A DNA stretch of 44,140 bases from a virus. Location of the stretch: positions 1 to 44,140 of IMG/VR virus record IMGVR_UViG_3300044633_000251. The stretch is one strand, 5' to 3'. Shown here in pieces: positions 3,433-21,140 of the stretch. The position numbers and the translations under genes were made by a program. The number at the start of each line of letters is the position of its first letter. Position 1 is the stretch's first letter. Under the pieces are notes generated by a model. That model was not told where the DNA came from. It worked only from the letters and a program-made list of their open reading frames with translations, and ran no database searches.

Positions 3433-4344
3433 ATGCCACAATATTTTTTCAAGTATCCGAAGCGTCTAGTTAATGGTATTCTATTAACGGATTTGATAGC
3501 AAGAGTAAAAATTGCCGACAAATACATTGACGAAGATTCTTTATATTATCAGTATGAATTCAAAGATTCTGATACAGCAGAATCTATTGCTCACAAGTAT
3601 TATAAAAATCCAGAATTACATTGGATAATTTTAATAACTAATCAAATATTTGATGCCAATTTCGATTTTCCAATGTCATATGATGTATTTAAAAATTATA
3701 TACTAGACAAATACAAAGATGCCAAAGCAGTAAGTTCTTTGAAAATAGAAAATCAAGGTTCCGGATATGTTGATGGATATTATGATAATGTTTATTTGAC
3801 TATAAAAAACGAAGAAACATTAGATATCGTTGGAAGTGGAGTAATTGCAGATTTAACTGTAGGGTCCGGAAAAATAACAAATGTTTCTGTATATCGTGGA
3901 GGATCGAATTATGATGCCAACACAATATTTACCATTAACAATTCAAATTTGGGGGGAACCGGAAGTGGGTTAGAACTATCAATTTTAACGTTTATGGATG
4001 GTATAGAGTATTCAACCACAACAATTCATCCGGAGTTTGGTTATCAGAAGACAGTAAAAGTGACCGATACTAGAACTGGAGAAATTCTATCCCAACAATA
4101 TTATAGTGTCGATGAAAATACATATTATAATTTATATGAAGGGACTGACCCATTTAAGAAAATAGTTCAATTGAATGATGGCACAGAAATTAAATATGAA
4201 ACTATTAGATCTACGTTAGTTACAGTATACGATTATGAAGATTATGTAAATGAAAAGAAGAGAAATATAAAAATATTAAAACAAGAATATTTTGCACAAG
4301 CAGTAGAAGAATTTGTTAAACTAATGAGTATGTTGTATGTCTGA
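3433..4344 (+). CDS. 53: Baseplate wedge protein gp53 with inserted GxGY module, 303 aa
   Basis: The N-terminal 100 residues match the gp53 pattern: a short strand, then DTAESIAHKYYKNPELHWII and a PMSYDVFKNYIL helix, the LysM-like region linking wedge to hub. The C-terminal part (VYDYEDYVNEKKRNIKILKQ and EEFVKLMSMLYV) also fits gp53. T4 gp53 is about 196 aa; the extra length is largely residues 103-186, two copies of a Gly-rich beta repeat (ENQGSGYVDGYY, then YRGGSNYDANTIF) shared with gp6, gp7, gp8 and the 2211-aa protein. The AAAGG at 3421-3425 lies 7 nt before the ATG. The stop overlaps the next gene by 8 nt. Confidence 0.88.
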   Translation: MPQYFFKYPKRLVNGILLTDLIARVKIADKYIDEDSLYYQYEFKDSDTAESIAHKYYKNPELHWIILITNQIFDANFDFPMSYDVFKNYILDKYKDAKAVSSLKIENQGSGYVDGYYDNVYLTIKNEETLDIVGSGVIADLTVGSGKITNVSVYRGGSNYDANTIFTINNSNLGGTGSGLELSILTFMDGIEYSTTTIHPEFGYQKTVKVTDTRTGEILSQQYYSVDENTYYNLYEGTDPFKKIVQLNDGTEIKYETIRSTLVTVYDYEDYVNEKKRNIKILKQEYFAQAVEEFVKLMSMLYV

Positions 4345-5746
4345 TTTAGTAGACGCTATTACAGATTTCTTGGGGCTAACGAGTCCCACAGATTTCCTAT
4401 TAAAGAAATGTAGAATTATTTCTGCCGATGGTAAACCTATGGAAATGCGTCTTACCAATGCGGAATTGAATTATTATGAGGATATATTTGGAAATGCTTG
4501 TTCCGGGAGTTTAATTCTTTCGGACTCTTCGAATCAGCAAAACGAAAAATCATTTTGTGGAGATGAGTTTCTACAATTGGAATTATTTAAACCCGGTCAA
4601 GAAGATTCGAAACCATTAAAAAAATATTGTAGAATATACAATATGGAAGATAGAAACCTGACAAAAGACTCCAATGAAAATTATGTATTAAATTTCTCTA
4701 CAGAAGAAATATTTTTATCTGAACAATATAGAGTTTCTAAATCATATAAACAAAAAAGAATAGATGAAATAGTAGATGATATTGCAAAAACATATTTAAA
4801 GATTAAAGATCCTATTGATAGCATTAAAACTTTGGGAAAATATGATATTATTATTCCAAATTTAAAACCTATGGAAGCAATTAATTGGTTATGCACCCAT
4901 GCCATTTGCGAAGATACTAGAATTACCGGAGCTTCTTATTTATTTTATCAAGATAAAGATAAATGGAATTTTAAACCATTTGTTGCTATATATGGAGACT
5001 ATGAAAAATATGGAGAATATTATGATAAGTATTGGTATGGAGTAAAAAATGACGGGGAAACAGAAGCTTCAGATCCTTCCGGATGGGAAGTGAAAAATAT
5101 CATTTCATATCAAATTATGAATAATCACGACATGTTAGAAGCCACGCAAGATGGTGTTTTCTCTAATAGGTTATTCTGGAACGATAACTTCAAAAGACTA
5201 CATGAAAAAGAAGAGTTTGATTATGAGAAATATTTCAATGATAAAATGATGCAGTTATCGCTGTATAAGGGGTATCATTCTTACCATTTGATGAGCACTG
5301 CACAAGATAGGTTCAAAAAGAAACATAACGAAGTTCCTGATACAGTAGTAAAAATGGGCTTTAAAACAAAAAATAATAGAATAGATGTTACAATTCCGCA
5401 TAGATATGTGCAAATGAGATTAGCCTCTGCCATAAGATTAAAAGTTGCTGTTCCCGGAGATACGAATCTAACGGTTGGAATGGTTGTTTATATAGATTTA
5501 AGATCTGCTGGTCCTGTACAAGCACCAAATACCGAAGCATCTAAAAAATTAGATAAGTTCTTTTGTGGAAGATATATAGTTACGGCATTACATCACAGAA
5601 TAGACCAAGAACAGAATTTTGAAACCACTATGGAACTTTGTAAGGATGCTTATGATAAAGCAGTCTCAACACAAGATTTCCCAGGATTAAAACCTTTTGC
5701 AGAAAGCGAAGATTTGATTAAAGCAAGATCACAAGGAACCTTTTAA
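4337..5746 (+). CDS. Baseplate hub protein (gp27-like), 469 aa
   Basis: In contractile tails a gp27/gpD-type hub trimer adapts the sixfold tube to the threefold spike and usually lies next to the spike gene, as here. Features are an N-terminal beta domain (CRIISADGKPMEMRLTNAEL, then an IFGNACSGSLILSD strand pair), a middle helical segment with the string YRVSKSYKQKRIDEIVDDIA, and a second beta-barrel portion near residues 340-440 (RLASAIRLKVAVPGDTNL, then FFCGRYIVTALHHRID). It is somewhat longer than T4 gp27 (391 aa). The ATG at 4337 overlaps the gp53 stop, implying coupled translation. The assignment is by family resemblance and position, so gp27 proper is likely but not proven. Confidence 0.68.
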   Translation: MSDLVDAITDFLGLTSPTDFLLKKCRIISADGKPMEMRLTNAELNYYEDIFGNACSGSLILSDSSNQQNEKSFCGDEFLQLELFKPGQEDSKPLKKYCRIYNMEDRNLTKDSNENYVLNFSTEEIFLSEQYRVSKSYKQKRIDEIVDDIAKTYLKIKDPIDSIKTLGKYDIIIPNLKPMEAINWLCTHAICEDTRITGASYLFYQDKDKWNFKPFVAIYGDYEKYGEYYDKYWYGVKNDGETEASDPSGWEVKNIISYQIMNNHDMLEATQDGVFSNRLFWNDNFKRLHEKEEFDYEKYFNDKMMQLSLYKGYHSYHLMSTAQDRFKKKHNEVPDTVVKMGFKTKNNRIDVTIPHRYVQMRLASAIRLKVAVPGDTNLTVGMVVYIDLRSAGPVQAPNTEASKKLDKFFCGRYIVTALHHRIDQEQNFETTMELCKDAYDKAVSTQDFPGLKPFAESEDLIKARSQGTF

Positions 5747-5748
5747 TT

Positions 5749-7290
5749 ATGATTAATGATACTAATGTACCCGGATTGGATGGATTTGTTTGGTGGACAG
5801 GTATTGTCGAAGGAAGAAAAGATCCAGAAAAACTATCTAGGATTCAAGTAAGAATGTTTGTTCATCACACTGATGATAAAAAACTAATACCATCACAAGA
5901 TTTAATTTGGGCAATTCCTGTATTTCCTTCCAATGTATCTAACAATACTTACGGCGTTAAAGAAGGAGATGCGGTATTTGGTTTTTATATAGATGGGAAA
6001 GATGCTCAACAGCCATATATTTTTGGAAGGTTTCCTGATAAACCAACTAAGCTGTATCCGGCTAGTAAAGGATTTTCTGATCCTGCTAGAGAATTGGGTG
6101 AACGTCCGACAGAAGTTGCATCTAGAACAATGATCGATAGCGAAGGATTGAAATATACTGATAAAGGACCAAGAAGATATCCAAATCCACTAAATGAGCA
6201 AACAAATAGTAGGATGGCTAGGAATGAGAAAATTGAACAAACTCCACTTCCTTTCATTAAAAGTAATATAAAAAAAGGGATAGAACTTCCGGGAAATTTA
6301 ACTTGGGACGAAGTTGCTCCAGATTATGGTGCGGTGTACCCGTATAATGATTCAAAGCAATCAGAATCCGGACATTATTTTGATGTTGACGATACCCAAA
6401 GAAAGGAACGTATTTGTTTGATGCATAGGACAGGAACTATGCAAGAAATGCGTCATACAGGAACTATTCACAGAAAAGACTTGAAACATGCTGTTAGATT
6501 GGTTCATGGTAGTGATTTAACTAATATTAGAGGAAATCACTACCATACAACCGAAAGATGGACAAGATTAAAATCTAAAGGAAGAACATTTGTTGATATT
6601 AATGCCGATGCAAAATTAAATATTGCCGGGACTTTAAATTTAAATATCGGGGGGGATTTAGTAATAAAAGTTGCTGGAAAAATATATATGGGAGCACAAG
6701 GAGCGGGAGAAGATTTGGGTAGCGCCGAGGGAGCGTGTCCTTCTCCAATAGAAAAAAGCTCTGGTAGTGGGATTATCGAAATAGATTCGCCAAAAACAGT
6801 ATTAACTGGTGTGGAATGTGCTCCACATACACATTTATATTTTCCCGGAGAATACGGACAGGCTCCAACATCTGGTCCAATTGGAACAGGATATACTTCT
6901 CCAAATTTTGCGGTTTGTGGTGGATCTGGACAGACCCCAGAACTAATTCCTATGCTAGACCCGAAGGAAGCATATATTGACAAAGAAATTAATGTTTCTT
7001 GTAAAGCTGGTAGCGAAGATCCTGCTAAAAAGAAAAGTTTGGAGCAATGGCTTGCTGATCTTCTCGATGCAATTACTGCTCCTGGTGCTGGTGGTGCTGG
7101 AGCAAAATGGTGTTTCCAGTATCCCGATGGAACAGAAAAATGCGTAGACACGCATCATGCTACTCCAGATTCTGATATTCTAATGTATGCTTGGTGTTCC
7201 GGAGCCACAGGAGCTACTGGTAGGGAAAATGCAACAATGATAACAACCCCATATACTCCACCAGAAGGATATGTTTGTCCGGGACCATAA
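5749..7290 (+). CDS. 5: Baseplate central spike gp5, lysozyme-free, with extended C-terminus, 513 aa
   Basis: The spike at the tail tip pierces the outer envelope. An OB-fold lies at about residues 13-100 (FVWWTGIVEGRKDPEKLSRI, then a GDAVFGFYIDG strand), followed by GFSDPARELGERP as in T4 gp5. The T4 lysozyme domain is absent; a linker leads to ESGHYFDVDDTQRKERICLM (206-225), matching the ESGH strand of gp5C, then beta-helix strands to about 315. A His-x-His motif (HTH, 360-362) resembles the iron-binding apex of contractile-tail spikes. About 150 residues follow it, including several Cys and the Gly-rich string GATGATGREN. An AAGGA ribosome site lies about 11 nt upstream of the start. Confidence 0.85.
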   Translation: MINDTNVPGLDGFVWWTGIVEGRKDPEKLSRIQVRMFVHHTDDKKLIPSQDLIWAIPVFPSNVSNNTYGVKEGDAVFGFYIDGKDAQQPYIFGRFPDKPTKLYPASKGFSDPARELGERPTEVASRTMIDSEGLKYTDKGPRRYPNPLNEQTNSRMARNEKIEQTPLPFIKSNIKKGIELPGNLTWDEVAPDYGAVYPYNDSKQSESGHYFDVDDTQRKERICLMHRTGTMQEMRHTGTIHRKDLKHAVRLVHGSDLTNIRGNHYHTTERWTRLKSKGRTFVDINADAKLNIAGTLNLNIGGDLVIKVAGKIYMGAQGAGEDLGSAEGACPSPIEKSSGSGIIEIDSPKTVLTGVECAPHTHLYFPGEYGQAPTSGPIGTGYTSPNFAVCGGSGQTPELIPMLDPKEAYIDKEINVSCKAGSEDPAKKKSLEQWLADLLDAITAPGAGGAGAKWCFQYPDGTEKCVDTHHATPDSDILMYAWCSGATGATGRENATMITTPYTPPEGYVCPGP

Positions 7291-7298
7291 ATTAATAT

Positions 7299-7306
7299 TA
7301 TAAATA
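7299..7306 (+). promoter_or_regulatory. Late promoter TATAAATA abutting the gp25 start codon
   Basis: Exact late consensus only 4 nt before the gp25 ATG (7311). The T4 rule places initiation at about 7312, at or just inside the start codon. Either the motif yields leaderless or 5'-truncated mRNA, or it is not used. Confidence 0.5.
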
Positions 7307-7310
7307 ATAG

Positions 7311-7724
7311 ATGGAATTACAAAATTATATTAAACCAGTAGAAAAAATTGTTTTCGCGGATTTAGATCTGGCGTTTAACATTCATCCTGTCAAAAAAGAT
7401 CTGGTTTTAAGTACAAATACTACCGCTGTAAAACGAGCGTTAAAATCGCTCGTTTTAACTAATCATTATGAAAGACCATTTCATCCGGAAATTGGTTCAA
7501 ATGTATTAAAATTATTATTCGAACCAATGACTCCATTGGTTGCTAATTATCTGGAAACGGAAATTTATAACACAATAGTAAATTTTGAACCTAGAGTAAG
7601 ATTACAAAGCATCGAAGTTGAAGGAGACGAAGATAGAAATGGTTATGTCATAACAGTAACATATTATGAAGCTAATTCAACAACTCCTATAACAATAGAC
7701 TTTTTATTAGAAAGATCAAGATAA
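7311..7724 (+). CDS. 25: Baseplate wedge protein gp25, 137 aa
   Basis: gp25 is the small wedge protein that starts sheath assembly and is conserved in almost all contractile injection systems. Length agrees with T4 gp25 (132 aa). Recognisable stretches are FNIHPVKKDLVLSTNTTAVK, then RPFHPEIGSNVLKLLFEPMT, in which the RPF-x-PE-x-G-x-x-L motif and the EPMTPL segment are the family hallmark, and FEPRVRLQSIEV. The preceding in-frame codon is a stop (TAG 7308-7310), so ATG 7311 is the only plausible start, yet there is no Shine-Dalgarno sequence and a late-promoter motif occupies that space. Nearby upstream is gp5, downstream gp6. Confidence 0.93.
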   Translation: MELQNYIKPVEKIVFADLDLAFNIHPVKKDLVLSTNTTAVKRALKSLVLTNHYERPFHPEIGSNVLKLLFEPMTPLVANYLETEIYNTIVNFEPRVRLQSIEVEGDEDRNGYVITVTYYEANSTTPITIDFLLERSR

Positions 7725-7738
7725 GGATACAATAAATT

Positions 7739-9808
7739 ATGCCAGGAGTAAATAATAATATTCAACTTACAGGATTAGATTTTGATGAAATTAAATCTAA
7801 TTTTAAGACATTTTTGCGTGAACAAAATGTCTTAAAGGATGCTAATTATGAAGGTAGTGCTTTGTCTATTCTACTAGACATTTTAGCATATAATACTCAT
7901 TATAATGCACACTATTTGAATATGGTTGCAAATGAAATGTTCCTAGATACCGCAGTAAAAAGAAGTTCTGTTATATCTCATGCGAAAGTTCTTGGATATC
8001 TTCCCGGATCAATCACTGCACCAACAGCAACTGTTAATGTATATTTTGAAGGCGTAACATCCTCGCAAATAGTATTACCCAGACATACAAAATTCATAAC
8101 AGAAACTATTGATAATACAAATTATCCTTATGTTACTCTAGAAGAAATAGTAATTACAAGAGATCAATATAATAATACAGCAAATGCTATAAATTTACAA
8201 ATAAAACAGGGAGAACCATTAACATATTCTTTCTTATATAACGTAAAACAAAATCCGAAAGCAATATTCAGAATTCCCGAATCAAATATAGACTTGTCTA
8301 CATTGAGGGTTATTATACAAAAATCTACTATTGATATTAATAATACTATTTATAATTATCCTGATGATATCTTAGCTTTGGATGGCGATTCTGAAGTATA
8401 TTTTATTCAAGAAACTTTTGATGGATATTACGAATTATATTTTGGTGATGGGGTTATTGGTAAAAAGTTACAAGATGGAAATATAGTAATTATTAACTAT
8501 CTTGCGGTATCAGAAACAATAATTCAAAATGTATCAGAATTTACATTAGTTTCAGATTCAATTGGTAATTACGGAGATGTTATTGTAACAACAACCATTC
8601 CCGGCAATGGCGGGAAAGGAAAAGAAACATTAGAAACCATAAAATATATGGCCCCAAAAGCATATGCTGCACAAGAAAGGGCTGTGACAGTGAACGACTA
8701 TATTACGCTAATACAAAAAAATTCTGGGCAATTCCCAATCGATTCTGTTAATGTTTGGGCAGGAGATAAGAACGATCCTCCAATTTATGGCAAAGTGTTT
8801 GTTGCTGTAAAACCACGAGGAGGTTATTCTTTAACACTAGCACAAAAGAATAAACTTAGAAATAATATAATCAAACCTATTAGTGTACTAACTGCCGATC
8901 CTGTGATTGTTGATGCGGATTACATTTATGTAAAAATAAATGCAGATGTATTATACAATCCTGCTAAAGCAATGATATCATATGAAGAATTACGTTCCTA
9001 TATTAAATATGTAATATCACAACAATCTAAGATAACTTTAAATACTTTCAATTCTACACTAGTACTACCAGATATAATAAATGTTGTTAGAAATGCTAAT
9101 CCATCAATTATAACTAATGAATGTAAAATAACATTACAAAAGAGAATTTTGCCCGATTTAAATAGATCGGAAAATTATTATGTGAAGTTTGGCACAAAAA
9201 TAAAAAGAGATATTTTAAGAAAATCGGTTTCTATATCTCCATCTATAAAATCAATTGATAATAGTATTGGAGCATTAATATTAAGATCAGAGGTATTTTT
9301 CGAGGAAGTTCCTTCGTCGGCATCTTCTATCCAATCAATTAAAATCATAGGAGCAGGATTAAATTATACTTCAACTCCAACAATAATTATATCCGGCGAT
9401 GGTTCTGGAGCAAAAGCACATGCTATTGTTAAAAGTGGAAAAATTTCCGATATAGTTGTTGATAATCCGGGTTCCGGCTATACACAAGCAACCGTAGAAA
9501 TTAGCGGTGGTGGTGGAATATTAGCTTCCGCTCAACCAATCTTAGATTCTCAATTTGGATATCTAAGAACCTACTACTTTAATAATGGATTAAAGATTAT
9601 ATTAAATTCTTCTGCTGGTACTGTTGACTATGAAAATGGGATAGTAACATTAACTAATTTCAAACCACAAGCGATAAATAATGAATTACAACAGTTAAGT
9701 ATAAATGTTGTTCCGGACAATACAATACTATCTTCAAACATGGATAGAATTTTAACGTTAGATGATACGGACCCAGATGCAATCACTGTCAATTTAACAG
9801 CAAAATGA
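7739..9808 (+). CDS. 6: Baseplate wedge protein gp6, 689 aa
   Basis: gp6 forms the wedge ring that ties the six baseplate sectors together and drives the sheath trigger. The N-terminus carries the conserved DFDEIKSNFKTFLREQNVLK, YEGSALSILLDILAYNTHYN and MFLDTAVKRSSVISHAKVLG segments found in gp6/gpJ family proteins, and a gpJ-like middle (YMAPKAYAAQERAVTVNDYI). Length is near T4 gp6 (660 aa). Residues about 532-602 hold a two-copy GxGY module (GAGLNYTSTPTIIISGDGSG, then NPGSGYTQATVEI) not expected in T4 gp6. AAGGA at 7723-7727 precedes the ATG by 11 nt. The TGA overlaps the next start as ATGA. Confidence 0.92.
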   Translation: MPGVNNNIQLTGLDFDEIKSNFKTFLREQNVLKDANYEGSALSILLDILAYNTHYNAHYLNMVANEMFLDTAVKRSSVISHAKVLGYLPGSITAPTATVNVYFEGVTSSQIVLPRHTKFITETIDNTNYPYVTLEEIVITRDQYNNTANAINLQIKQGEPLTYSFLYNVKQNPKAIFRIPESNIDLSTLRVIIQKSTIDINNTIYNYPDDILALDGDSEVYFIQETFDGYYELYFGDGVIGKKLQDGNIVIINYLAVSETIIQNVSEFTLVSDSIGNYGDVIVTTTIPGNGGKGKETLETIKYMAPKAYAAQERAVTVNDYITLIQKNSGQFPIDSVNVWAGDKNDPPIYGKVFVAVKPRGGYSLTLAQKNKLRNNIIKPISVLTADPVIVDADYIYVKINADVLYNPAKAMISYEELRSYIKYVISQQSKITLNTFNSTLVLPDIINVVRNANPSIITNECKITLQKRILPDLNRSENYYVKFGTKIKRDILRKSVSISPSIKSIDNSIGALILRSEVFFEEVPSSASSIQSIKIIGAGLNYTSTPTIIISGDGSGAKAHAIVKSGKISDIVVDNPGSGYTQATVEISGGGGILASAQPILDSQFGYLRTYYFNNGLKIILNSSAGTVDYENGIVTLTNFKPQAINNELQQLSINVVPDNTILSSNMDRILTLDDTDPDAITVNLTAK

Positions 9809-12800
9809 TACCAGAAAATTATAGAAATTTTTTAGCGATAGCTAAACAGCTTCCCCAATTTATTAGGGATGAAGAATCATACGAAACGTTTATCTATTTT
9901 TTACAATCTTATTACGAATGGTTAGCACAACCACTTAATATAGAAGATCGAGCAAAAAATATCTTAAATTATAAAGATATTGATAATACACTAGACGAAT
10001 TTGAACAATTCTTTTTTAACGAGTTCTTACAATATTTTCCAGAAGATACTCTAATTGACAAAAGAAAATTGGTAAAATTTTCTAAAGAAATATATAGAAG
10101 AAAATCAACCCCCGCATCATTTAAATTTTTATTTAGATCTATCTATGGTTCTGATTGTGAAACTACGGAAACTGAACAATTTGTATTAAAAGCTTCTGAT
10201 GGAAAATGGGCTGCTTCTAGAACAGTAAAACTGGACACATTAGATTCTAGATTTTTGCAAATCGACAACTACTTGATTTTTGGCGAAACATCAAAAGCGG
10301 TCGGAAAAATAGAAAAATCCCAAGTATCTTCTAAAAAAATAGAAATATTTCTGAGTGATATTAATAGAAGTTTTATATCCGGAGAAACAGTAAGAATAGT
10401 AGATTCTACCTTAAATGATGTTATTATAGACGGATCTAATTTAGTTTCTAAAATAGTAGGTTTGGTCAGATCCATTATACCAAACTCAAGATTCAAGGGC
10501 TTAAATTATAATGTAGGAGATCCTGTAATCCTTTTTGGTGGTCTAAATGAAAATATAGATAATCCTATAGGAGCAACAGCCCTAGTTTCTGAAGTCAATC
10601 CCGGAAGTGTTGGTAATATAACTCTAACATACGGATCGCAGGGATTTCGACCATATCCAGAAAGTGAAATTGTTTTTATTGGAGGAGGCACACAAGTAAC
10701 TTCCGCAACAGCGGCAGTTACTGGTATTGATATAACTCGACCAAGAGAAGTTGATCTGATTATGCAGGATGTAATATATCCTTTTAGAAGTGTGTTTTTA
10801 AATGAAGCTTCTTATGAGTTTGCTACAATGCCAACAGCAAACGCAAATACTAGACTAATAGATGCATTGCACGAAACTTCTTTTACAACATATCCAATAG
10901 CGAATGTTGCTCTTTTTACTGGCGGTGCTGGCTATGTTTCAGTACCACAAGTAAATGTTTTATCAAAATATAATGTCGTATCAAATAGTGCAACAATAAT
11001 AGGAACTTCTAGTTTAGATAAACTGAATATTTTGGGAGACATAGAAGTTGTTTCTGGAGGAACTAATTATCTTGTTAATAATACTATTAATTTCATTGGG
11101 GGTTCTGGTGTCGGAGCTTATGCCAATGTTACCCAAGTGGCAGCTAACGGAGCAATAGAAAAGGTTGAATATGTAAGAGCACCAACTGGTGCTGGTAGTT
11201 ATCCGTTAGGTGGAATGGGTTATTCTATATTACCAAGATTAACTGTCAATTCTATTTCTGGAAATAACGCGGTTTTGCGAATAGCTGCTGTTCTCGGAGA
11301 TGGAGAATCTGTAAAAGCATCTACAGATGACATAGGAAAAGTGGAAAAAATAGATGTTATACAAGAGGGCGAAGATTACGTTTCTGTTCCAACGGTATCA
11401 TTGAGAATTGTAGATATTATTTTAACTGGAGTTTCTAGAACAGATACACCAGAAATAAACGAAATAATATATCAAGGATCTATAGGAGCACCAAGTTTCA
11501 GAGCAAATACTTATTCGTTTGAAGTAATTGATGAAGAAAATGATTATTATTTGGGGAGATTTTATAACTATACCGGAACATTAAACTCTTCTTCACCAAT
11601 AAAAGCGGATAAGAATATTTCCGGAGATGAATTTTATCAATATAATGTATTAACATCATATAATACAGATGTTTTCGAGAATGGCGTTAACTTCTTTGGT
11701 AACGGTAGAGCTAGAGCAAATGCATTTCTATTGACAGGAACAACAGCATATGATGGAAAGTATTTAAATTCCGACGGACATTTGAGTTCATATTGCAGAT
11801 TACAAAATGAAGTATATAATAATTATACATATTTTATCGATGTAGAAAAATCTTTCTCATCTTATAAAGAATTGGTAGAAAATTTATTGAATCCTGCTGG
11901 AAGCCAATTCTTAGGAAAACATATAATAAAAGATAAAGAAGAAATAAACGTAGAACTGGAGTATAATTCCGGATATAAATTAGCAAATTTGACAAGTTAT
12001 GCAAATTCTTCCGTGAATGCTGTAATATTATCGACGGAAACAAATGGAGGTGATTTAGTTAGATTTAGTAAAATAACTCCTTACATTGGGGTTAGTAATC
12101 TATCTAGTATAATTTCCCCTAATACCAAAGTTTCTATCAAAAATAACTCATATTCTGTTTATATTTACGAAATAGTGGTAAAGAAACCATATTTTATTAC
12201 CAATTTCCCTAGTTATGGGTCGATTGTATATCAAGGAAATGGAACTAATCCTAGTTTCTATGGCAAATTTGATTCGGCAACACTCATTAATGCTAGAGAG
12301 AGTATTTACTCAATTAAATTGTTTGATTGTTATGGAATAATATATCAACAAACATCCTCTCAAATATACTCCGATGTAGAAACAATTAATGATAAATTTT
12401 ATTATTATGATGTCCAAACTACATATGATACAACTCCATATAATAATGGATACTATACATATAACAATAGAGAAATATACTATTCATCAGTTTCTACAGT
12501 GTATGATGCAAACACCACAATAAAACTAAACGATTATTATCTATTGAGATACAATAATGTAGTTTACGGATACACGAGTTCTAATACTTTTGTCATAACA
12601 GAATTAACTGGTAATTTTGACAAAATAAATAATGGTGAATATTCTTCAACAAGAAAACTAAATGATATAATATTTTCTACAGATATATTGTATATTCAAA
12701 ATAATTCCAATGTTATTGTTAATTCTATAAATTACCAAGATGGAATAATTTATTGCAATAAAGTTTTGACTAGCGCGGGTAATTCAACATCTCCAGTGCT

Positions 12801-12852
12801 ATTAAGCGTAGAAAGAAACTTCAACTCTAACGAAATTTTTATAGAACATTAA
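9805..12852 (+). CDS. 7: Baseplate wedge protein (gp7-like), 1015 aa
   Basis: The position between gp6 and gp8 and the length (T4 gp7 is 1032 aa) point to the wedge initiator gp7. The N-terminal 120 residues are a helical domain with FIYFLQSYYEWL, then YKDIDNTLDEFEQFFFNEFL and STPASFKFLFRSIYG, a pattern I know from large wedge proteins of T4-like marine phages. The rest is beta-rich with at least four GxGY-type repeats between about residues 270 and 535 (for example GGAGYVSVPQVNV and EGEDYVSVPTVSL), then a Tyr/Asn/Ser-rich C-terminal half. Its ATG lies in the ATGA overlap with gp6. The fit to gp7 rests mainly on order and size; the C-terminal half is unlike anything I recognise. Confidence 0.72.
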   Translation: MIPENYRNFLAIAKQLPQFIRDEESYETFIYFLQSYYEWLAQPLNIEDRAKNILNYKDIDNTLDEFEQFFFNEFLQYFPEDTLIDKRKLVKFSKEIYRRKSTPASFKFLFRSIYGSDCETTETEQFVLKASDGKWAASRTVKLDTLDSRFLQIDNYLIFGETSKAVGKIEKSQVSSKKIEIFLSDINRSFISGETVRIVDSTLNDVIIDGSNLVSKIVGLVRSIIPNSRFKGLNYNVGDPVILFGGLNENIDNPIGATALVSEVNPGSVGNITLTYGSQGFRPYPESEIVFIGGGTQVTSATAAVTGIDITRPREVDLIMQDVIYPFRSVFLNEASYEFATMPTANANTRLIDALHETSFTTYPIANVALFTGGAGYVSVPQVNVLSKYNVVSNSATIIGTSSLDKLNILGDIEVVSGGTNYLVNNTINFIGGSGVGAYANVTQVAANGAIEKVEYVRAPTGAGSYPLGGMGYSILPRLTVNSISGNNAVLRIAAVLGDGESVKASTDDIGKVEKIDVIQEGEDYVSVPTVSLRIVDIILTGVSRTDTPEINEIIYQGSIGAPSFRANTYSFEVIDEENDYYLGRFYNYTGTLNSSSPIKADKNISGDEFYQYNVLTSYNTDVFENGVNFFGNGRARANAFLLTGTTAYDGKYLNSDGHLSSYCRLQNEVYNNYTYFIDVEKSFSSYKELVENLLNPAGSQFLGKHIIKDKEEINVELEYNSGYKLANLTSYANSSVNAVILSTETNGGDLVRFSKITPYIGVSNLSSIISPNTKVSIKNNSYSVYIYEIVVKKPYFITNFPSYGSIVYQGNGTNPSFYGKFDSATLINARESIYSIKLFDCYGIIYQQTSSQIYSDVETINDKFYYYDVQTTYDTTPYNNGYYTYNNREIYYSSVSTVYDANTTIKLNDYYLLRYNNVVYGYTSSNTFVITELTGNFDKINNGEYSSTRKLNDIIFSTDILYIQNNSNVIVNSINYQDGIIYCNKVLTSAGNSTSPVLLSVERNFNSNEIFIEH

Positions 12853-12854
12853 AT

Positions 12855-14492
12855 ATGGCAATTATAGCAAATAATGGTGGTTTATTAACAACATCATTCA
12901 AAACACATGATATAGAAAAATTTTATTATTCTCCAATATCTTTATTAAGCGATACAAATGATTTGATAACAAATTTATATTGTTTTATAGGGTATAGAAA
13001 TCCAAATACCGCCAACTCTTTACAGATCCCTGTAAATTCAAATGCGTATCTAAAAAGCGTTTATAAAAGCATGTTTGCTGCTAAAAGAATAACAAATAAC
13101 GAATTATCTCCAGTAATAGAAAAAATAAAATGGTCGGCTAACACTTTTTACGATATATATACAGATAAAGAAGATATGTTCGAAAAGGACATTAACGGAA
13201 AATTGATGAAGAAGTTTTATGTTGTTAATAGATTTGATCAAGTATTTAAATGTTTATGGAACGGAAAAAATCGTAGTAATACTTACAGCGTTTCGTCAAT
13301 AACCAGGTCCAATACCATAGTTTCTATCGAATATTCTGGATTAAATTCATATTCTATTGGAGAGTATATAACATTACAAAACTGCAATCCCGCAGACTAT
13401 AATGGCACATATAGAGTAGTTTCGTCTACAAATGGAAAAGCAAACGTTGCATATGGTTTAAGCGAGTCTTATAAATTAGGAATTGCTAATACATATATTT
13501 CTGGTGGAAGAATTAATAAAACAAAATTATCTACAGTAGAGCCATATTTAGATGCTGGTACATTTGATACTTCGCTTTTGCAAATTACTTCTGACGGATA
13601 TAAATGGAAATATATCTATACAATAGATAAAGGAAGAAAAGAGAAATTCTATGATAATGATTACATTCCAGTTCCTATAAAAGAAGACGAACCGCCGAAT
13701 ATAGGCGAAACATCATCTAAAGCGGGAAGTATAGATATTATTGGTCTTCTGGAAGGAGGTTCTGGCTATTCGGAAGGAACAGATACCGTTGATATCAAAA
13801 TAACCGGAGATGGATACAACGCCAATGCTATAGCATATATTACTTCTAATAGTATTGTTGATATTCTAGTAACATCCCCAGGATATGGATACACCTATGC
13901 TGATTTATCTATTACTCCTTCGGGAGTTTTATCTGGCAATGGGGCAAATGCAGAAATTTATATTTCCCCAATTGGAGGACATGGTTTCGATCCAATAGAA
14001 GAATTTGGTTGCGATACAATCATGATATCGTGTGAATTTCAAGGAAATGAATCTGGAAAAATACCAACAAATTTAGTATTTAACCAATTGGGATTATTAG
14101 TGAATCCATATGAATTGGAGTCTGATATACTACATGCGAACGGAAGTATTTATACCCTATCAACAGCAATATTAACAACTCCATCGATAACACCGTTTCG
14201 ACAAGGTGAAGTAATTTATCAAGGAACGAGCATAACAGATTATACATTTATTGGAGAATGTTTGTCATTCGATCCCACTACCAATGCTTTATATGTTATA
14301 AATAGTGTAGGTGTTCCTCGTCAGAACTATGCTGTAATAGGTGCTTCTTCTGGCGGGTATGCTATTATATCGGGTACATCCGAACCAACAATGGCAAAAT
14401 ATACTGGAAATATTGTGTATGTAGAAAACATTGAAACCACACAAAGAGATTCTTCGGATACAGAACAATTTAGGCTTATAGTAAAATATTAA
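12855..14492 (+). CDS. 8: Baseplate wedge protein gp8, enlarged, 545 aa
   Basis: Several T4 gp8 landmarks are visible: an N-terminal TSFKTHDIEKFYYSPISLL segment, a FYVVNRFDQVFKCLWNGKN segment (cargo strand before the conserved Tyr/Trp), GYKWKYIYTIDKGRKEKFYD followed by NDYIPVP, and the C-terminal TGNIVYVENIETTQRD with a final EQFRLIVKY strand, equivalent to the MIYMEN and ILF end of T4 gp8. T4 gp8 is 334 aa; the excess is explained by an inserted beta domain near residues 135-190 and a GxGY module at about 289-374 (GGSGYSEGTDTVDI, SPGYGYTYADLSI). gp8 is a dimeric outer wedge subunit. The start is 2 nt after the preceding stop without an evident ribosome site. Confidence 0.85.
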   Translation: MAIIANNGGLLTTSFKTHDIEKFYYSPISLLSDTNDLITNLYCFIGYRNPNTANSLQIPVNSNAYLKSVYKSMFAAKRITNNELSPVIEKIKWSANTFYDIYTDKEDMFEKDINGKLMKKFYVVNRFDQVFKCLWNGKNRSNTYSVSSITRSNTIVSIEYSGLNSYSIGEYITLQNCNPADYNGTYRVVSSTNGKANVAYGLSESYKLGIANTYISGGRINKTKLSTVEPYLDAGTFDTSLLQITSDGYKWKYIYTIDKGRKEKFYDNDYIPVPIKEDEPPNIGETSSKAGSIDIIGLLEGGSGYSEGTDTVDIKITGDGYNANAIAYITSNSIVDILVTSPGYGYTYADLSITPSGVLSGNGANAEIYISPIGGHGFDPIEEFGCDTIMISCEFQGNESGKIPTNLVFNQLGLLVNPYELESDILHANGSIYTLSTAILTTPSITPFRQGEVIYQGTSITDYTFIGECLSFDPTTNALYVINSVGVPRQNYAVIGASSGGYAIISGTSEPTMAKYTGNIVYVENIETTQRDSSDTEQFRLIVKY

Positions 14493-14504
14493 GGAAAAAC
14501 AAAT

Positions 14505-17500
14505 ATGGCATTAACATTCCAAAATGGTCCATACTGGGACGACTTCGACACGAATAAAAATTTCCACAGAATTCTATTTAAGCCAGGATACGCAGTCCAA
14601 GCTAGGGAATTGACTCAAGCTCAAACAATATTACAAAATCAAATTACTAAATTTGGTAATCATATTTTTAAAAATCATTCTATTGTTTCTGGAGCAGGAA
14701 CTACACTTAATTTCAGTGTATATTTTCTAAAACTAGAACCATTTGATCAATTTGATAATGAAATTGTTGCCGCAGATTTTAGAAATGTAACTGTAACGAA
14801 TTCTGATGGAACGATAGTTGCTAAAGTTGTTCATACCGCAGAAAAATTCGTAGATAATACTGGTGCAGTTATCGATCCTCCTACATTGATATTGTCGTAT
14901 ATTTCCGGAGATCGTTTCAATAATGGAGATACTGTTATAGTTGTCGATACCGACATTTCTGCTGTAGTAATCGATGGAAATTCCATATATCAACCAAGTA
15001 CAGGGAAATCTTCAATTGCATCTGTATCTGATGGTGTTATGTACATCGACGGATATTTCGTTTCAGTACAAGAACAAACAGTTTCTGTAGATGAATATAC
15101 AGATGCTCCTTCTGCGCGAGTTGGACTTTCTATCAGCGAAAATGTTTTCGATTACAATGACGATCCTTCTTTACTCGATCCCGCATTAGGATCTTCAAAT
15201 TTCCAAGCACCCGGAGCAGATAGATATAAAATTCAATTGACTTTAATATCAAAGCCTCTAGCAATTGATGAAGATGACACATTTATAGAGTTATTGAGAA
15301 TTGATGCTGGGAAATTATTAAAATCAGTGCGATTTACAGAATATTCTATTATTGATGATTATTTTGCAAGAAGAACGTTTGATACTAATGGAGATTTTAT
15401 TTCCGAAAAATTCAAGTTGACTACAGAATCTATACCATCTTCAAGTAATACATTTTTGGTTAAAGTTGGTCCGGGAAAGGCATTTGTTAGAGGTTATGTA
15501 GTAGAAAACCAGAGCGATGCAAGCTTTACATGCCACAAGGCTAGAGATTATAACACAGTAGAAAACTCTACAATGTTTATGGGGTATGGGAATTATCTAT
15601 ATTGCGATACTGTAACTGGATTAGTAGATCAGAAAGGATACCAAACGGTAGATTTTCATGTTGTAAAAACTCCAGCAAGTTTAAATAATACTTCTTCTCC
15701 AACATACATAGCGACAAAAGCTGGTACTGCAAAAATTAGAGGGATGGATTTCCAATTCGCCCCCAATTCAGCAAACTCCAAATCGTTTATCTATAAAATG
15801 TCTTTTGTTGATATACAAACTACTACATTGAGAGGATATTCAGCAAATACATATGAATCAAACAACTCAATAGCTCTTCCATCAACTTTTTCGGCAACAG
15901 CCAATGCATATAAAGGATTGTATATTACCATCGATTCTGGTGTTAACGCCGGGGATCTATTACAAATAGTTTCTTATGATGGTGTTGGAAAAGTAGCTCA
16001 ACTGAACAAAACCTTCAGAAGAACAGTGGAGGCTAACGTCGAATTCACCATTCTTTTTACTTCCAAAGATTTCGAATCTTTTTACGCCCAATCGAATACT
16101 GTCACGAAAGGCATAATTAACAATTCTAGTAAAACTAATGGTGTAGATTCGGGCGATGTTGTTTTTGCAAATGTTGGAGAACAAGAATTAATATATCCAT
16201 TTGAAAATTCCTTTGTTAAACAAAATTCTGTAAATAATTCAAATTATCATTCATGGATAAGGTTCACCAACAAGCCCATAAATGGTTCCATTCAAGTTCC
16301 CGGAACAGGTGTTATGGAATTTGAAGTTGGAACAGATGGTGTCCTTGATGTATCGCAGATAAATGAAAACTTTATTTGTGTAATAAGAAGTCCGGGAACC
16401 TCTGGATTAGCTTATGGAGATATAGTTACTTTTGGAGGAACATCAACCGATGGTATTACAATAAGTTCTTCTTCATCGACGGCAACAATTAATAAAAGTA
16501 CTTGGACTTCGACAACATTAGACATTTATGCAAAAGTATGGATTGTAAATGGCAATGACCAAACATACGTCAAAAAAACAAAGACTGTTGTAAGTGCTAA
16601 TGTTTCGAGTGTAAACTATACCGGAACGCAAGTAACAACTAATGTTCATGTCGATTTAGTTAATGCACAAGTATATTATAAGAAGGGGACATTTAATACC
16701 ACAAAACAATCATTATATATTGCTGATGCTAGAAGAATAATTAAAATTATTGATACACAATTAGCAAATACCGTTCCAACTACGGATATGTTATCAAATC
16801 CTCTATATGATGTCACTAGATATTATTCTTTTGATGATGGACAAAGAGATAATTATTACGATCATGCTTCTTTAGCTCTCATTAATGGTTCTCCAGCACC
16901 AAAAGGAAATTTATTAGTCCTTCTTTCATATTTTAGTCATAGTGGAGGAGATGGCTTTTTTATCGGAGATTCGTATATAAATGTACCGTATGAAAATATA
17001 CCTAGATATATTTCCAAAACCGGAAAAACTTATAATTTAAGGGATTCTATAGATTTTAGACCAAAAGTTAAGAATGCCAACGCAACATTCGCATTCGAAG
17101 ACTCTGTTTCCAGTTCTCCTATTGGTATTCCTGTTGATGGAACGAATTTTATAACCGACTACTCATATTATATCGGAAGAAAAGATATCATAGTAATTTC
17201 TAAAGACAAAAATATATCTTTGATAGAAGGCGTTTCTTCTATAAATCCAAAAGAACCTAAAGAACCGGATGGTTCGATCATCATAGGACGATTGACTCAT
17301 GAACCATACACATCATTCATTCCTGGAGATGATACAGTTGGAACTTCGTCTTCCTTAAATTTACAATTTGTCAATCATAAACGTTGGAGAATGGAAGATA
17401 TTACTTCATTAGAAGAAAGAGTTAATAGATTAGAATATTATAGTTCTTTAAGTAATATAGAGCAAAGTGCCAAAAGTTTACAAATACCAGATGAATTTGG

Positions 17501-20500
17501 CAATAACAGATTCAAGAATGGAATACTAACGGACGATTTTAGTTCTTATAAAGTTGCAGATGCTTACAGCCAAGATTTAGCATGTTCTATATCACAAGCA
17601 AAAAGAAAATTATTTGCTCGAACCGATGTTGCAAATTATCCACTATTCTTGAGAGATGCGTTATATAGTAATGGAGTTGTTAGAGACTCTGATGATTTAA
17701 ATTATAAAGTACATTATGATGGAGTAATTTCTTATGCTACTCTTCCATATAGTACAATGCCCCTAGCAACTCAACCATATGCTACTGGTACAGTAAATCT
17801 TAATCCGTTCATGTTTATTGGTATTGAAGGAGTTTGTTATATAAGTCCTTCAATAGATAATTGGATTTCTACATCAAGACTTCCTGATATTTTGATTTCG
17901 TCCACAGATCCAGGATTTAAAGTTTCTGTTGAATCTAATACAAATAATGTATTTGCGGATTATCAAACAATCACTTCTACGGAAAGACCTCCTGTAACTA
18001 CCACCAGCGAAATTCAATTTAAAACGAATACAACTGAGTATAATGATCCTACCAGAAATTTTCCATCACGAATGACAGAAGATGAGGTATTGGATTTTTA
18101 TACATTATATGGTTCTGAAGCATATTCCGGAGGAAAACCTTTATTTACCACAGCCATACTAGGTTTGGTTCCACCATTAAAAACCAAACCAATACCTAAT
18201 GGAGTTACTATAACTAATTGGGGTAGTGGTGGATATTTGGGGCATCTACAATTTTCTGTTGCTATGTTCCTATGGGAAAAACATAGTAAAACTGGACTTT
18301 GGTCTGGTATTGGAACCACATCGTTAACATCAGTTTCTACATCTACTGTTACGCAAACTACCGATGTTAAGATCTGGGGTAATTGGCAAAATGTGACCGA
18401 TACTTTTGAACAAAATAATGGATTTGTTACTGACGTTTCTATGAATCCTTACATAAGATCCCAACAAATCCAATTTGTTGCGAAAGATTTATTGGTTAAT
18501 AGTCCGATGAGTTGTTTTTTCGATGGTGTTGATGTTAGCAATAGAATTAGACAATCTAATATTATAGAAGTTAATAACACCATTTTATATTCTAATATAA
18601 GATCTAGATTAATTTCTCCTACACAAGCGTTCCAAACAGGAGATGTTTTGGCATATTATGATACAGCCACGGCTTCATATAAGAAATTCGCTATAGTAGT
18701 TAATGTTCATACAAATAATTCCACAGAAATTTATAATAGTGCAAATGTTAATATTGGCGTTATATTAAGACAGAAATTAGATCTGGGTTCTGATGTAGAT
18801 TCAACCATTTATTTTAAAAATACAAATCTAAATTCCAATGTTTTTGCATTAATAATTAATGGAAGCGGTGCAACTACTGGTATCAAAGCCAAAGCAAATC
18901 TCGCTTCAATTTATAAAGTTTCTGGTAAAATTAAAAAACAATATGGGAGTAATCAAATCGTTATCCCAAGAACATATTCTGGCGAATTTACTAACAATCA
19001 ATCAAAGTATGTTGGTAGAGATTTGTTTGTAATTTATCCAGATATGGAAATTAGTTATAGAATAGCTTCTGGAAGAGAAGATAATACAAATAATGAAATT
19101 GTGTTAATGACTGATAATACTTCTATTATTACTGCGAATTCCATTGCTAATGCTATATTCGACATAAAACCAGTAAATCCTTCTGGAAGATTGAGAAGTG
19201 ATAAAGTCGGTGCTATTTCGGGGACATTATATTTACCAGGAAATCAGTTCAAAACTGGAGAAAAAATATTTAGGGTAGATAATAGAACTGGAGGAAATTC
19301 TGGAACAGAAACAACATTTGCACAGACTAAGTTCTTTGCATCATCATTGAATGTCCAGAAACAAAATTTAAACTTTTCTTCAGACCCAAGTAAAATTTCT
19401 GGTAGCAAAACTACGAGCACAAGTTCTAATACTGTAAATACAGTAAAACAAACATATGCTTCTACCAAAATTGTTAACTATGTCGATCCTGTGTGTCAAT
19501 CGTTTATTGTTTATTCCAACGAAGCGCCAAACGGAGCATTTGTCAAATCGGCTAAATTGTTCTTTAAAACAAAACCGACTACTCATAATTCACCAGTAAC
19601 CGTATCAATATTAGAAACTATCAATGGATATCCTTCTGGTGATTTCTTACCGCACTCCACGGTTGTATTGAATACTGACGAAATTAAAGTTTCAGAATCG
19701 CCTAATATGGAAGACGAATCAACATGGACAGAGTTTACATTCCCGGTTCCTGTTTATATTCGTCCAGAAACAATGTATGCTTTGTTAGTAAGAACAAATT
19801 CCAATGAATATTTTATATGGACGGCAGAACTTGGAGAATTTGCTCTGTCCAGTACTGCTGGAGGTTTTGCAAATTATAAAATTGCTCAAACACCATACAT
19901 AGGCGAACTATTTTTGTCCCAAAATACAATAACTTGGGCAGCAGATCAAAATAAGGATTTAATGTTCCAATTAACTCGTTGCGATTTTGATATTACAAAA
20001 AATCCTTCTATTGATTTTGTGGTTCCTACAAAACTGCCACAAAGACATTTAGTAGACAATTCACTTTCATATTCCGATGACGCGAATACTAGTTCCGATT
20101 TCGGAGTTTCGTATACAACAAATCAGAACAGAGAAATTAGTGCATTTAATGTTACTGCTTCAGATTTGACATTTGATGTTGCTCCTATAACATATACTTA
20201 CAAGGCAACTATTAAATCTCCAAGAGAAACCGAAGTATTCCCACATTCGATAACTCCGGGAAAATACGGAACAGCAACATATGATGATATCTATTTAGAT
20301 GATGGTAAGGGAGAAAGAATTTTAATTGCTAATTCTGCAAATTCCTTTGTTTTAACTGCAACATTAAGTTCCAGAGATTCTTTGATAAGTCCTGTAATTT
20401 CAGAATCTGGAACAACTTTATATGGTGTAAAATGGGCTATCAACGATTTGGGATTGGCAAATAATAATTTTATTGTTATTGATGGAGGAACTGGATACTC

Positions 20501-21140
20501 AAATTCTTCTGTAATTACTATTACAAGAACTTCCAATACAACAGGAGAAAATGCGATTGTAAATCCTGTAGTAAAGGCAAATGGGGTAATAGATAGAATT
20601 GATGTAATTTATGCTGGATCTGGATACGCATCAACTCCAACAATAACTATAGATGATCCATATAGAAGTGGAAATTCGAATGCTGAAATTATAATAGTTG
20701 GGGAAACTTCCTATAGAGGAGGAAATGCCTTATTACGATATGTTACAAAACCAGTCACGCTTGCTGCAGGATTTGACGCTGGTGATATAAGAGTATATTT
20801 CACGGCTTATAGACCTGTTAATTCCGATATATATGTATACTATAAAATATTAGATAGAAACGATATTCAGCAGTTTGGTGATAGCGATTGGCAATTAATG
20901 ACTATGATATCTGGCGATTCTTTATATTCTTCGTCAAGAAACGATTTGAGAGAATTCGTTGCTGCTCCTGGTAGAGATCTAGTTGCTGATAATAAAGTTT
21001 CGTATGTGAGTAAATCTTCTGGGGAAACTTTTGTGAACTTCTATCAATTTGCTATTAAAATTGTATTATCCTCGCCAGATTCTACAAGAGTTCCGTACTT
21101 GATAGATCTAAGAGCTATTGCATTACCAGAGGCCATATAA
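14505..21140 (+). CDS. Giant baseplate-associated structural protein with DUF4815-type N-terminus, 2211 aa
   Basis: The N-terminus (GPYWDDFDTNKNFHRILFKP, then GYAVQARELTQAQTILQNQI and FGNHIFKNHSIVSG) matches the DUF4815 pattern of large virion proteins in T4-like marine phages. Further along lie KRWRMEDITSLEERVNRLEY (near residue 965, a short helix), FDGVDVSNRIRQ, and SNEAPNGAFVKSAKLFFKTK with a following jelly-roll-like stretch near 1667-1800. A GxGY pair is at about 1988-2065 (DGGTGYSNSSVITI, YAGSGYASTPTITI). Position after gp8 suggests it takes the place of T4 gp10 and neighbours, linking wedges to fibres; that is inference. A strong AAGGAAAA site precedes the ATG. This is the longest gene in the window. 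Confidence 0.72.
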   Translation: MALTFQNGPYWDDFDTNKNFHRILFKPGYAVQARELTQAQTILQNQITKFGNHIFKNHSIVSGAGTTLNFSVYFLKLEPFDQFDNEIVAADFRNVTVTNSDGTIVAKVVHTAEKFVDNTGAVIDPPTLILSYISGDRFNNGDTVIVVDTDISAVVIDGNSIYQPSTGKSSIASVSDGVMYIDGYFVSVQEQTVSVDEYTDAPSARVGLSISENVFDYNDDPSLLDPALGSSNFQAPGADRYKIQLTLISKPLAIDEDDTFIELLRIDAGKLLKSVRFTEYSIIDDYFARRTFDTNGDFISEKFKLTTESIPSSSNTFLVKVGPGKAFVRGYVVENQSDASFTCHKARDYNTVENSTMFMGYGNYLYCDTVTGLVDQKGYQTVDFHVVKTPASLNNTSSPTYIATKAGTAKIRGMDFQFAPNSANSKSFIYKMSFVDIQTTTLRGYSANTYESNNSIALPSTFSATANAYKGLYITIDSGVNAGDLLQIVSYDGVGKVAQLNKTFRRTVEANVEFTILFTSKDFESFYAQSNTVTKGIINNSSKTNGVDSGDVVFANVGEQELIYPFENSFVKQNSVNNSNYHSWIRFTNKPINGSIQVPGTGVMEFEVGTDGVLDVSQINENFICVIRSPGTSGLAYGDIVTFGGTSTDGITISSSSSTATINKSTWTSTTLDIYAKVWIVNGNDQTYVKKTKTVVSANVSSVNYTGTQVTTNVHVDLVNAQVYYKKGTFNTTKQSLYIADARRIIKIIDTQLANTVPTTDMLSNPLYDVTRYYSFDDGQRDNYYDHASLALINGSPAPKGNLLVLLSYFSHSGGDGFFIGDSYINVPYENIPRYISKTGKTYNLRDSIDFRPKVKNANATFAFEDSVSSSPIGIPVDGTNFITDYSYYIGRKDIIVISKDKNISLIEGVSSINPKEPKEPDGSIIIGRLTHEPYTSFIPGDDTVGTSSSLNLQFVNHKRWRMEDITSLEERVNRLEYYSSLSNIEQSAKSLQIPDEFGNNRFKNGILTDDFSSYKVADAYSQDLACSISQAKRKLFARTDVANYPLFLRDALYSNGVVRDSDDLNYKVHYDGVISYATLPYSTMPLATQPYATGTVNLNPFMFIGIEGVCYISPSIDNWISTSRLPDILISSTDPGFKVSVESNTNNVFADYQTITSTERPPVTTTSEIQFKTNTTEYNDPTRNFPSRMTEDEVLDFYTLYGSEAYSGGKPLFTTAILGLVPPLKTKPIPNGVTITNWGSGGYLGHLQFSVAMFLWEKHSKTGLWSGIGTTSLTSVSTSTVTQTTDVKIWGNWQNVTDTFEQNNGFVTDVSMNPYIRSQQIQFVAKDLLVNSPMSCFFDGVDVSNRIRQSNIIEVNNTILYSNIRSRLISPTQAFQTGDVLAYYDTATASYKKFAIVVNVHTNNSTEIYNSANVNIGVILRQKLDLGSDVDSTIYFKNTNLNSNVFALIINGSGATTGIKAKANLASIYKVSGKIKKQYGSNQIVIPRTYSGEFTNNQSKYVGRDLFVIYPDMEISYRIASGREDNTNNEIVLMTDNTSIITANSIANAIFDIKPVNPSGRLRSDKVGAISGTLYLPGNQFKTGEKIFRVDNRTGGNSGTETTFAQTKFFASSLNVQKQNLNFSSDPSKISGSKTTSTSSNTVNTVKQTYASTKIVNYVDPVCQSFIVYSNEAPNGAFVKSAKLFFKTKPTTHNSPVTVSILETINGYPSGDFLPHSTVVLNTDEIKVSESPNMEDESTWTEFTFPVPVYIRPETMYALLVRTNSNEYFIWTAELGEFALSSTAGGFANYKIAQTPYIGELFLSQNTITWAADQNKDLMFQLTRCDFDITKNPSIDFVVPTKLPQRHLVDNSLSYSDDANTSSDFGVSYTTNQNREISAFNVTASDLTFDVAPITYTYKATIKSPRETEVFPHSITPGKYGTATYDDIYLDDGKGERILIANSANSFVLTATLSSRDSLISPVISESGTTLYGVKWAINDLGLANNNFIVIDGGTGYSNSSVITITRTSNTTGENAIVNPVVKANGVIDRIDVIYAGSGYASTPTITIDDPYRSGNSNAEIIIVGETSYRGGNALLRYVTKPVTLAAGFDAGDIRVYFTAYRPVNSDIYVYYKILDRNDIQQFGDSDWQLMTMISGDSLYSSSRNDLREFVAAPGRDLVADNKVSYVSKSSGETFVNFYQFAIKIVLSSPDSTRVPYLIDLRAIALPEAI

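Follow-up and report, generated by a model that had tools for sequence, protein, structure and literature searches.

A GxxY beta module in five proteins of a T4-like tail cluster, apparently a distant relative of T4 gp18 domain I

The tail cluster and its modules

We analysed a 44-kb virus record (IMGVR_UViG_3300044633_000251) and use the term window for the whole stretch of 44,140 nucleotides. It carries a T4-like tail cluster, with the genes in the order tail tube cap, gp53, tail protein, gp5, gp25, gp6, gp7-like protein, gp8, a DUF4815 protein of 2211 aa and fibre proteins. Five of these proteins contain a module with a GxxY signature, in all cases in the correct reading frame. The host proteins and their family matches are as follows:

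3433..4344, plus strand: gp53, 303 aa (PF11246, 3.6e-7; phrog_232, 1.9e-30)
7739..9808, plus strand: gp6, 689 aa (PF21379, 2.1e-18; phrog_219, 1.2e-142)
9805..12852, plus strand: gp7-like protein, 1015 aa (phrog_17744, wedge subunit, 5.6e-32; gene order 25-6-7-8)
12855..14492, plus strand: gp8, 545 aa (phrog_438, 9.1e-75)
14505..21140, plus strand: DUF4815-containing protein, 2211 aa (PF16075, 2.3e-59; phrog_358)

Membership of the baseplate is clear for gp53, gp6 and gp8. It is likely for the gp7-like protein, whose family (phrog_17744) is also matched by residues 646-758 of T4 gp7 at 3.6e-4. An earlier sequence-only reading had counted five baseplate proteins; of these the 2211-aa protein, with its DUF4815 and phrog_358 assignments, is no more than a candidate.

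The GxxY module is a domain of about 80 residues and consists of two half-repeats, each of which runs strand, GxxY, strand, DGxGA-type turn, strand. We located it at the following positions:

3730..4002, plus strand: module in gp53 (aa 100-190), matched at 3.4e-7 by a profile trained without gp53
3751 and 3895, plus strand: half-repeat motifs GSGY and GSNY of the gp53 module
9320..9556, plus strand: module in gp6 (aa 528-606), in place of a short loop of other gp6 proteins
10486..10848, plus strand: module 1 of the gp7-like protein (aa 228-348; GLNY, GSQGF)
10888..11160, plus strand: module 2 of the gp7-like protein (aa 362-452; GAGY, GTNY), which aligns with gp18 domain I from GTNY onward
11146..11424, plus strand: module 3 of the gp7-like protein (aa 448-540; GMGY, GEDY)
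13719..13964, plus strand: module in gp8 (aa 289-370), between the T4-like core and SPIGGHG
20451..20714, plus strand: module in the 2211-aa protein (aa 1983-2070, near the C terminus)

The Gly and Tyr of GxxY are invariant in the gp6 and gp8 modules and the DGxGA turn is also among the invariant positions. The gp7-like protein has six half-repeats in total (GLNY, GSQGF, GAGY, GTNY, GMGY and GEDY), which amount to about three domains across 10486-11424. A division into four domains was rejected because its four HMM envelopes overlap, and the six half-repeats are the safer count. The sequence-only reading had described one repeat style in gp53, gp6, the gp7-like protein, gp8 and the 2211-aa protein, and we found it in all five at the places it had named. 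It had further suggested that the module makes up much of the length by which gp53 and gp8 exceed their T4 counterparts. For gp53 this is correct, with about 85% of the excess (303 versus 196 aa), whereas in gp8 the module accounts for only about 40% of it (545 versus 334 aa).

One family inserted at different times

Family alignments were built from 80 relatives found with gp6; a scan of the genome contigs for related loci with a single protein gave two loci only. The module profiles matched across proteins in both directions. At E<1e-3 a profile made from gp6 modules only recognised gp8 in 35 of 35 ORFs and gp7 in 33; conversely, gp8 modules alone were enough to recognise gp6 in 81 of 81 ORFs. 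When one family at a time was left out, the iterated profiles recovered gp53 at 3.4e-7 and the 2211-aa protein at 5.1e-7. The profile without gp7 recovered gp7 in 42 ORFs, with just 0.025 for the gp7-like protein of the window itself. Shuffled and reversed ORFs served as controls and gave no match at E<1, which rules out chance similarity among the modules. A low-complexity repeat is ruled out as well, as the units give a confident fold with invariant Gly and Tyr. Judged from these profiles, the modules in the different proteins share ancestry. The proposal that several wedge proteins have received one and the same add-on domain is thus borne out, and since the reciprocal and leave-one-out profiles do match, a failure of the profiles of each protein to hit the others can be set aside. 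The domain carries no Pfam name, and we found no Pfam family that covers it. In a comparison of 89 modules with Pfam (E≤1) the top entry was Cadherin-like with E=0.002, and among the best 25 of the 36 families matched we found neither Gp18_dom_I nor any of the classical phage Ig families (I-set, Big_2, fn3 and others).

The modules interrupt proteins that are conserved elsewhere along their length, and the insertion sites differ in how widely they are occupied. In gp8 the module lies at one site that is common to the relatives of the window and all six Kyanoviridae isolates aligned (in Mosig, Melnitz-3 and S-PM2 the site is placed by alignment only), and T4 gp8 is without it. The gp7-like modules are kept in 66 of 66 relatives of sufficient length. 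In gp6 the module is kept in all 81 gp6 ORFs of the clade of the window; the gp6 proteins of T4, S-PM2, P-SSM4, HTVC008M, Mosig, Melnitz-3 and QB2 have no module and show a short loop instead. The gp53 module is absent from 27 of 28 aligned relatives and L063 has a small partial stretch only; elsewhere it occurs in L138 and L139, which are identical contigs, and in L140 and L141, two contigs at 84% identity. The partial stretch of L063 (gp53 relative of 232 aa) falls inside the module site and is perhaps a remnant or an effect of the alignment. The module of the 2211-aa protein is also present in five relatives of the C-terminal region, in two of which the second half-repeat has decayed, and most other relatives of this protein end upstream of the module position.

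Within the window the modules share a pairwise identity of 24-43%. In a poorly resolved tree they cluster by host protein and not by phage; given this resolution and the overlapping gp7 envelopes, only the grouping by protein is used here. Acquisition looks stepwise, with the gp8 and gp7 modules old, the gp6 module specific to the clade and the gp53 module recent. The grouping by protein and the 24-43% identity fit modules that were acquired long ago, step by step, and have since been inherited vertically. The suggestion that the module had spread by duplication finds no support as far as recent copying inside this genome is concerned, in either the identities or the tree.

Fold and relation to the T4 tail sheath

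With 89 gp6 and gp8 sequences as input, AlphaFold modelled the gp6 module with six strands (pLDDT 86); the gp7 region, modelled on gp7 sequences alone, reached a pLDDT of 87.5. We compared both models with the PDB using Foldseek, where the matches are to whole gp18 chains with the domain unspecified. For the gp6/gp8 model T4-type gp18 was found with probabilities of 0.57, 0.57 and 0.47 and a weak E-value of 2.1, and the others among the matches listed had at most 0.07. For the gp7 model gp18 chains took ranks 1 to 7 with probabilities between 1.00 and 0.98 (1.00 for six of them), again at a weak E-value (0.027), and non-sheath structures had 0.01. The expectation of one fold across the proteins was thus checked for two module sets (gp6/gp8 and gp7), and in both T4-type gp18 is the only credible match.

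Profile-profile comparison locates the similarity within gp18. With hhalign the gp7 alignment matched a set of nine diverse gp18 domain I sequences at P 5.9e-6 (prob 85%, 81 columns) and the broad module set matched domain I at P 1.2e-5 (prob 81%); the profile of gp6 and gp8 modules only was weak at P of about 0.003-0.021. As a control, each profile was aligned to 27 target stretches cut from the gp18, gp6 and gp8 families, three of which hold domain I. Whichever of the four module profiles is used, these three come out on top, and the remaining 24 all lie at P≥0.03. The HMMER module match on T4 gp18 covers ORF positions 106-160 and so falls on domain I, and with the broad profiles none of 2000 shuffles was as good. 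The glycine of the GxxY signature is G106 of T4 gp18.

The Pfam model of this domain, Gp18_dom_I (PF22639), never reached its cut-off of 27 bits on the modules; it gave 11-14 bits in three Kyanoviridae, and in HTVC008M its best match below the threshold fell on a gp7 module. Three module profiles were run against the PDB sequences, and none of them brought up gp18. Antibody heavy chains that came up in the PDB sequence search were rejected as local, GxxY-like chance matches, which were gone with module profile A5.

Like the module, T4 gp18 domain I (PF22639; PDB 3FO8, residues 98-188, and 3FOA) is an inserted, six-stranded domain, and in both GxxY marks the first turn, ahead of a strand of VGD-I-V type and then a G-K-I strand. 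The two differ between strands 4 and 5, where gp18 domain I has a helix (KIIAxAK segment) and the module has the second GxxY half-repeat. They also differ in location: domain I is inserted in domain II of the sheath protein, whereas the modules of the window lie in wedge and other proteins. Taken together, these comparisons suggest a distant kinship between the module and T4 gp18 domain I.

Domain D3* of the tailspike Dpo31 from Cobetia phage Carin-1 (PDB 28lx, 28mg and 8ck1) is another relative with a solved structure; it is an inserted, protruding, Ig-like domain (PMC13317679). Residues of about 446-505 of Dpo31 form two GxGY half-repeats and score 25.5 bits with the broad profile, and none of 5000 shuffles scored as high. 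Unlike the modules of the window, D3* sits in the trimeric beta-helix depolymerase of a podovirus, and the passages of its description covered here draw no connection to T4-like baseplates (PMC13317679). The view that the module belongs to an undescribed system is therefore correct only in part: it has no Pfam family, but it does have solved relatives in gp18 domain I and D3*. A literature search, with subscription journals mostly outside its reach, found no description of the repeat or of the link to gp18.

Distribution and possible role

The module is not special to the window and recurs across marine T4-like phages. Whole-genome profile searches gave 23 module matches in QB2, 18 in P-SSM4 and 11 in S-PM2. 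In Kyanoviridae, which are isolated marine T4-like phages, its hosts are gp8, giant gp7-like proteins, the neck protein gp14, tail fibres, gp5 and, in some cases, the tail sheath. QB2, P-SSM4 and S-PM2 share the gp8 site and the many copies with the window and differ from it in a gp6 without the module and in gp7-like proteins that reach 6,283-7,312 aa; these giants (6,283 and 7,312 aa) account for about 16-18 module matches. The QB2 protein (6,283 aa, L085:2185-21036) also has a YHYH domain (PF14240, 3.5e-33). PHROG families containing the module stretch include wedge, neck (Hc2), hub/lysozyme, fibre and other structural proteins, and among predicted viral structures we found it in fibres, baseplate, hub and other proteins. 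Some cyanophage sheath proteins hold it internally (L166, 1.3e-7). The module in the S-PM2 sheath (L157:700-1080) has 45% identity over 95 aa to gp12 short tail fibres of other cyanophages. It also occurs in a marine podovirus tailspike and in a few cellular proteins. With neck, hub, fibre and sheath proteins from many phages among its hosts as well, the module does not make up a system confined to the wedge.

In bacteria the module is rare (3 of 299 genomes of one phylum). One bacterial genome (L122, G063:C115) has an open frame of 19,427 aa with a module match of 7.7e-16. A protein of more than 2,000 aa from a Pseudomonadota MAG (L117:4-6177) contains long arrays of GxxY half-repeats and by eye, from an HDHTSAM-type motif, resembles a multicopper oxidase. 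In HTVC008M the gp7-like protein beside gp6 (YP_007517921.1, L089:25436-28486) is annotated as 'head closure Hc2' and matches wedge families too. Its match to the Hc2 family phrog_460 starts no earlier than residue 484 and lies in a region that bears a module, so this annotation was possibly misled by the shared module.

Our preferred explanation is that the module is a mobile beta-barrel of surface type, with about 80 residues and six strands and a distant relation to gp18 domain I; it would form an outward-facing knob and work as domain I does in T4. Such a knob may offer a low-affinity docking surface for fibres, adjacent tail proteins and possibly host glycans. In T4, domain I lies exposed on the outside of the sheath, where it takes no part in contacts from one sheath subunit to another but binds the baseplate and the retracted fibres, and the gp18 mutations G106S, S175F and A178V inhibit fibre retraction (PMC3004832). 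By analogy we infer that the modules would be exposed outward and would dock or adhere. As a whole we regard this explanation as somewhat more probable than its negation, and our confidence is higher for the relation to gp18 domain I than for the docking function. If the T4 copy numbers hold (12 for gp6, 6 for gp7, 12 for gp8 and 6 for gp53; PMC3004832), there would be about 48 knobs per baseplate, the 2211-aa protein excluded. In a bolder version, which we consider rather unlikely, the sheath, wedge, neck and fibre modules would be one interchangeable family of connectors and the docking interface would have moved from the sheath to the baseplate in the clade of the window. In T4-type phages the knob is on the sheath and touches baseplate and fibres. 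The sheaths of three relatives from the clade of the window (L158, L159 and L160) have 562-570 aa, with a stretch of only about 45 residues where T4 gp18 has domain I, and sheaths of this kind would allow such a move.

The main rival to docking knobs is a decoration that weakly binds polysaccharide on the host surface and aids reversible adsorption, as has been proposed for phage Ig-like domains. It is in keeping with the frequent occurrence of the module in tail fibres and short tail fibres, with its presence in a very large bacterial ORF and with the distant DALI similarity of D3* to sugar-binding domains (PMC13317679). We saw no conserved sugar-binding residues, however; what is invariant is the DGxGA turn and, in GxxY, the structural Gly and Tyr, and T4 gp53 and gp6 are located in the upper baseplate dome around the hub, away from the cell surface before contraction (PMC3004832). 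We hold glycan binding to be possible but on the unlikely side.

The modules could also be neutral additions, beta domains that are easily inserted, tolerated in exposed loops and drifting with no dedicated function. The erratic presence in gp53, the widely varying copy numbers and the decay of the second half-repeat in two relatives of the 2211-aa protein are what drift would leave behind. It would leave harder to explain why the modules are kept in 35 of 35 gp8, 81 of 81 gp6 and 66 of 66 gp7 ORFs of sufficient length, why Gly and Tyr are invariant in those of gp6 and gp8 and why the gp8 module persists at one site across Kyanoviridae, and we think this reading distinctly improbable. About as little can be said for a cementing role, the cross-linking of wedges suggested in the sequence-only reading, in which modules of adjacent wedge proteins touch and stabilise the baseplate. 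Conserved modules in three wedge proteins, in every relative of sufficient length, would agree with it, and in phage 812 the extra domains of the sheath have been proposed to stabilise (PMC9230969). Against this, gp53 and gp6 acquire the module independently of gp8, the module is also found in proteins without such partners (a single tailspike, fibres) and gp18 domain I itself lacks contacts between sheath subunits (PMC3004832), which makes cross-linking very doubtful.

In kind, modules of this sort are already known: they are promiscuous surface add-on domains. Promiscuous Ig-like domains of phage structural proteins were described by Fraser et al. 2006 (cited in PMC9230969), and like them the GxxY module is a small beta add-on in many kinds of virion protein; unlike them it has its own signature, GxxY ... 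DGxGA ... GxxY. What appears to be new is its distant relation to T4 gp18 domain I, from which it seems that a known docking part was reused across many parts of virus tails. The module draws unrelated structural proteins into one another's annotation. The link to gp18 domain I provides a solved template for many insertions, so far without an explanation, in proteins of the baseplate, neck, fibres and sheath, together with a tested T4 phenotype, the fibre retraction lost in G106S, S175F and A178V. The role of the extra mass on marine myovirus tails thereby becomes a testable question.
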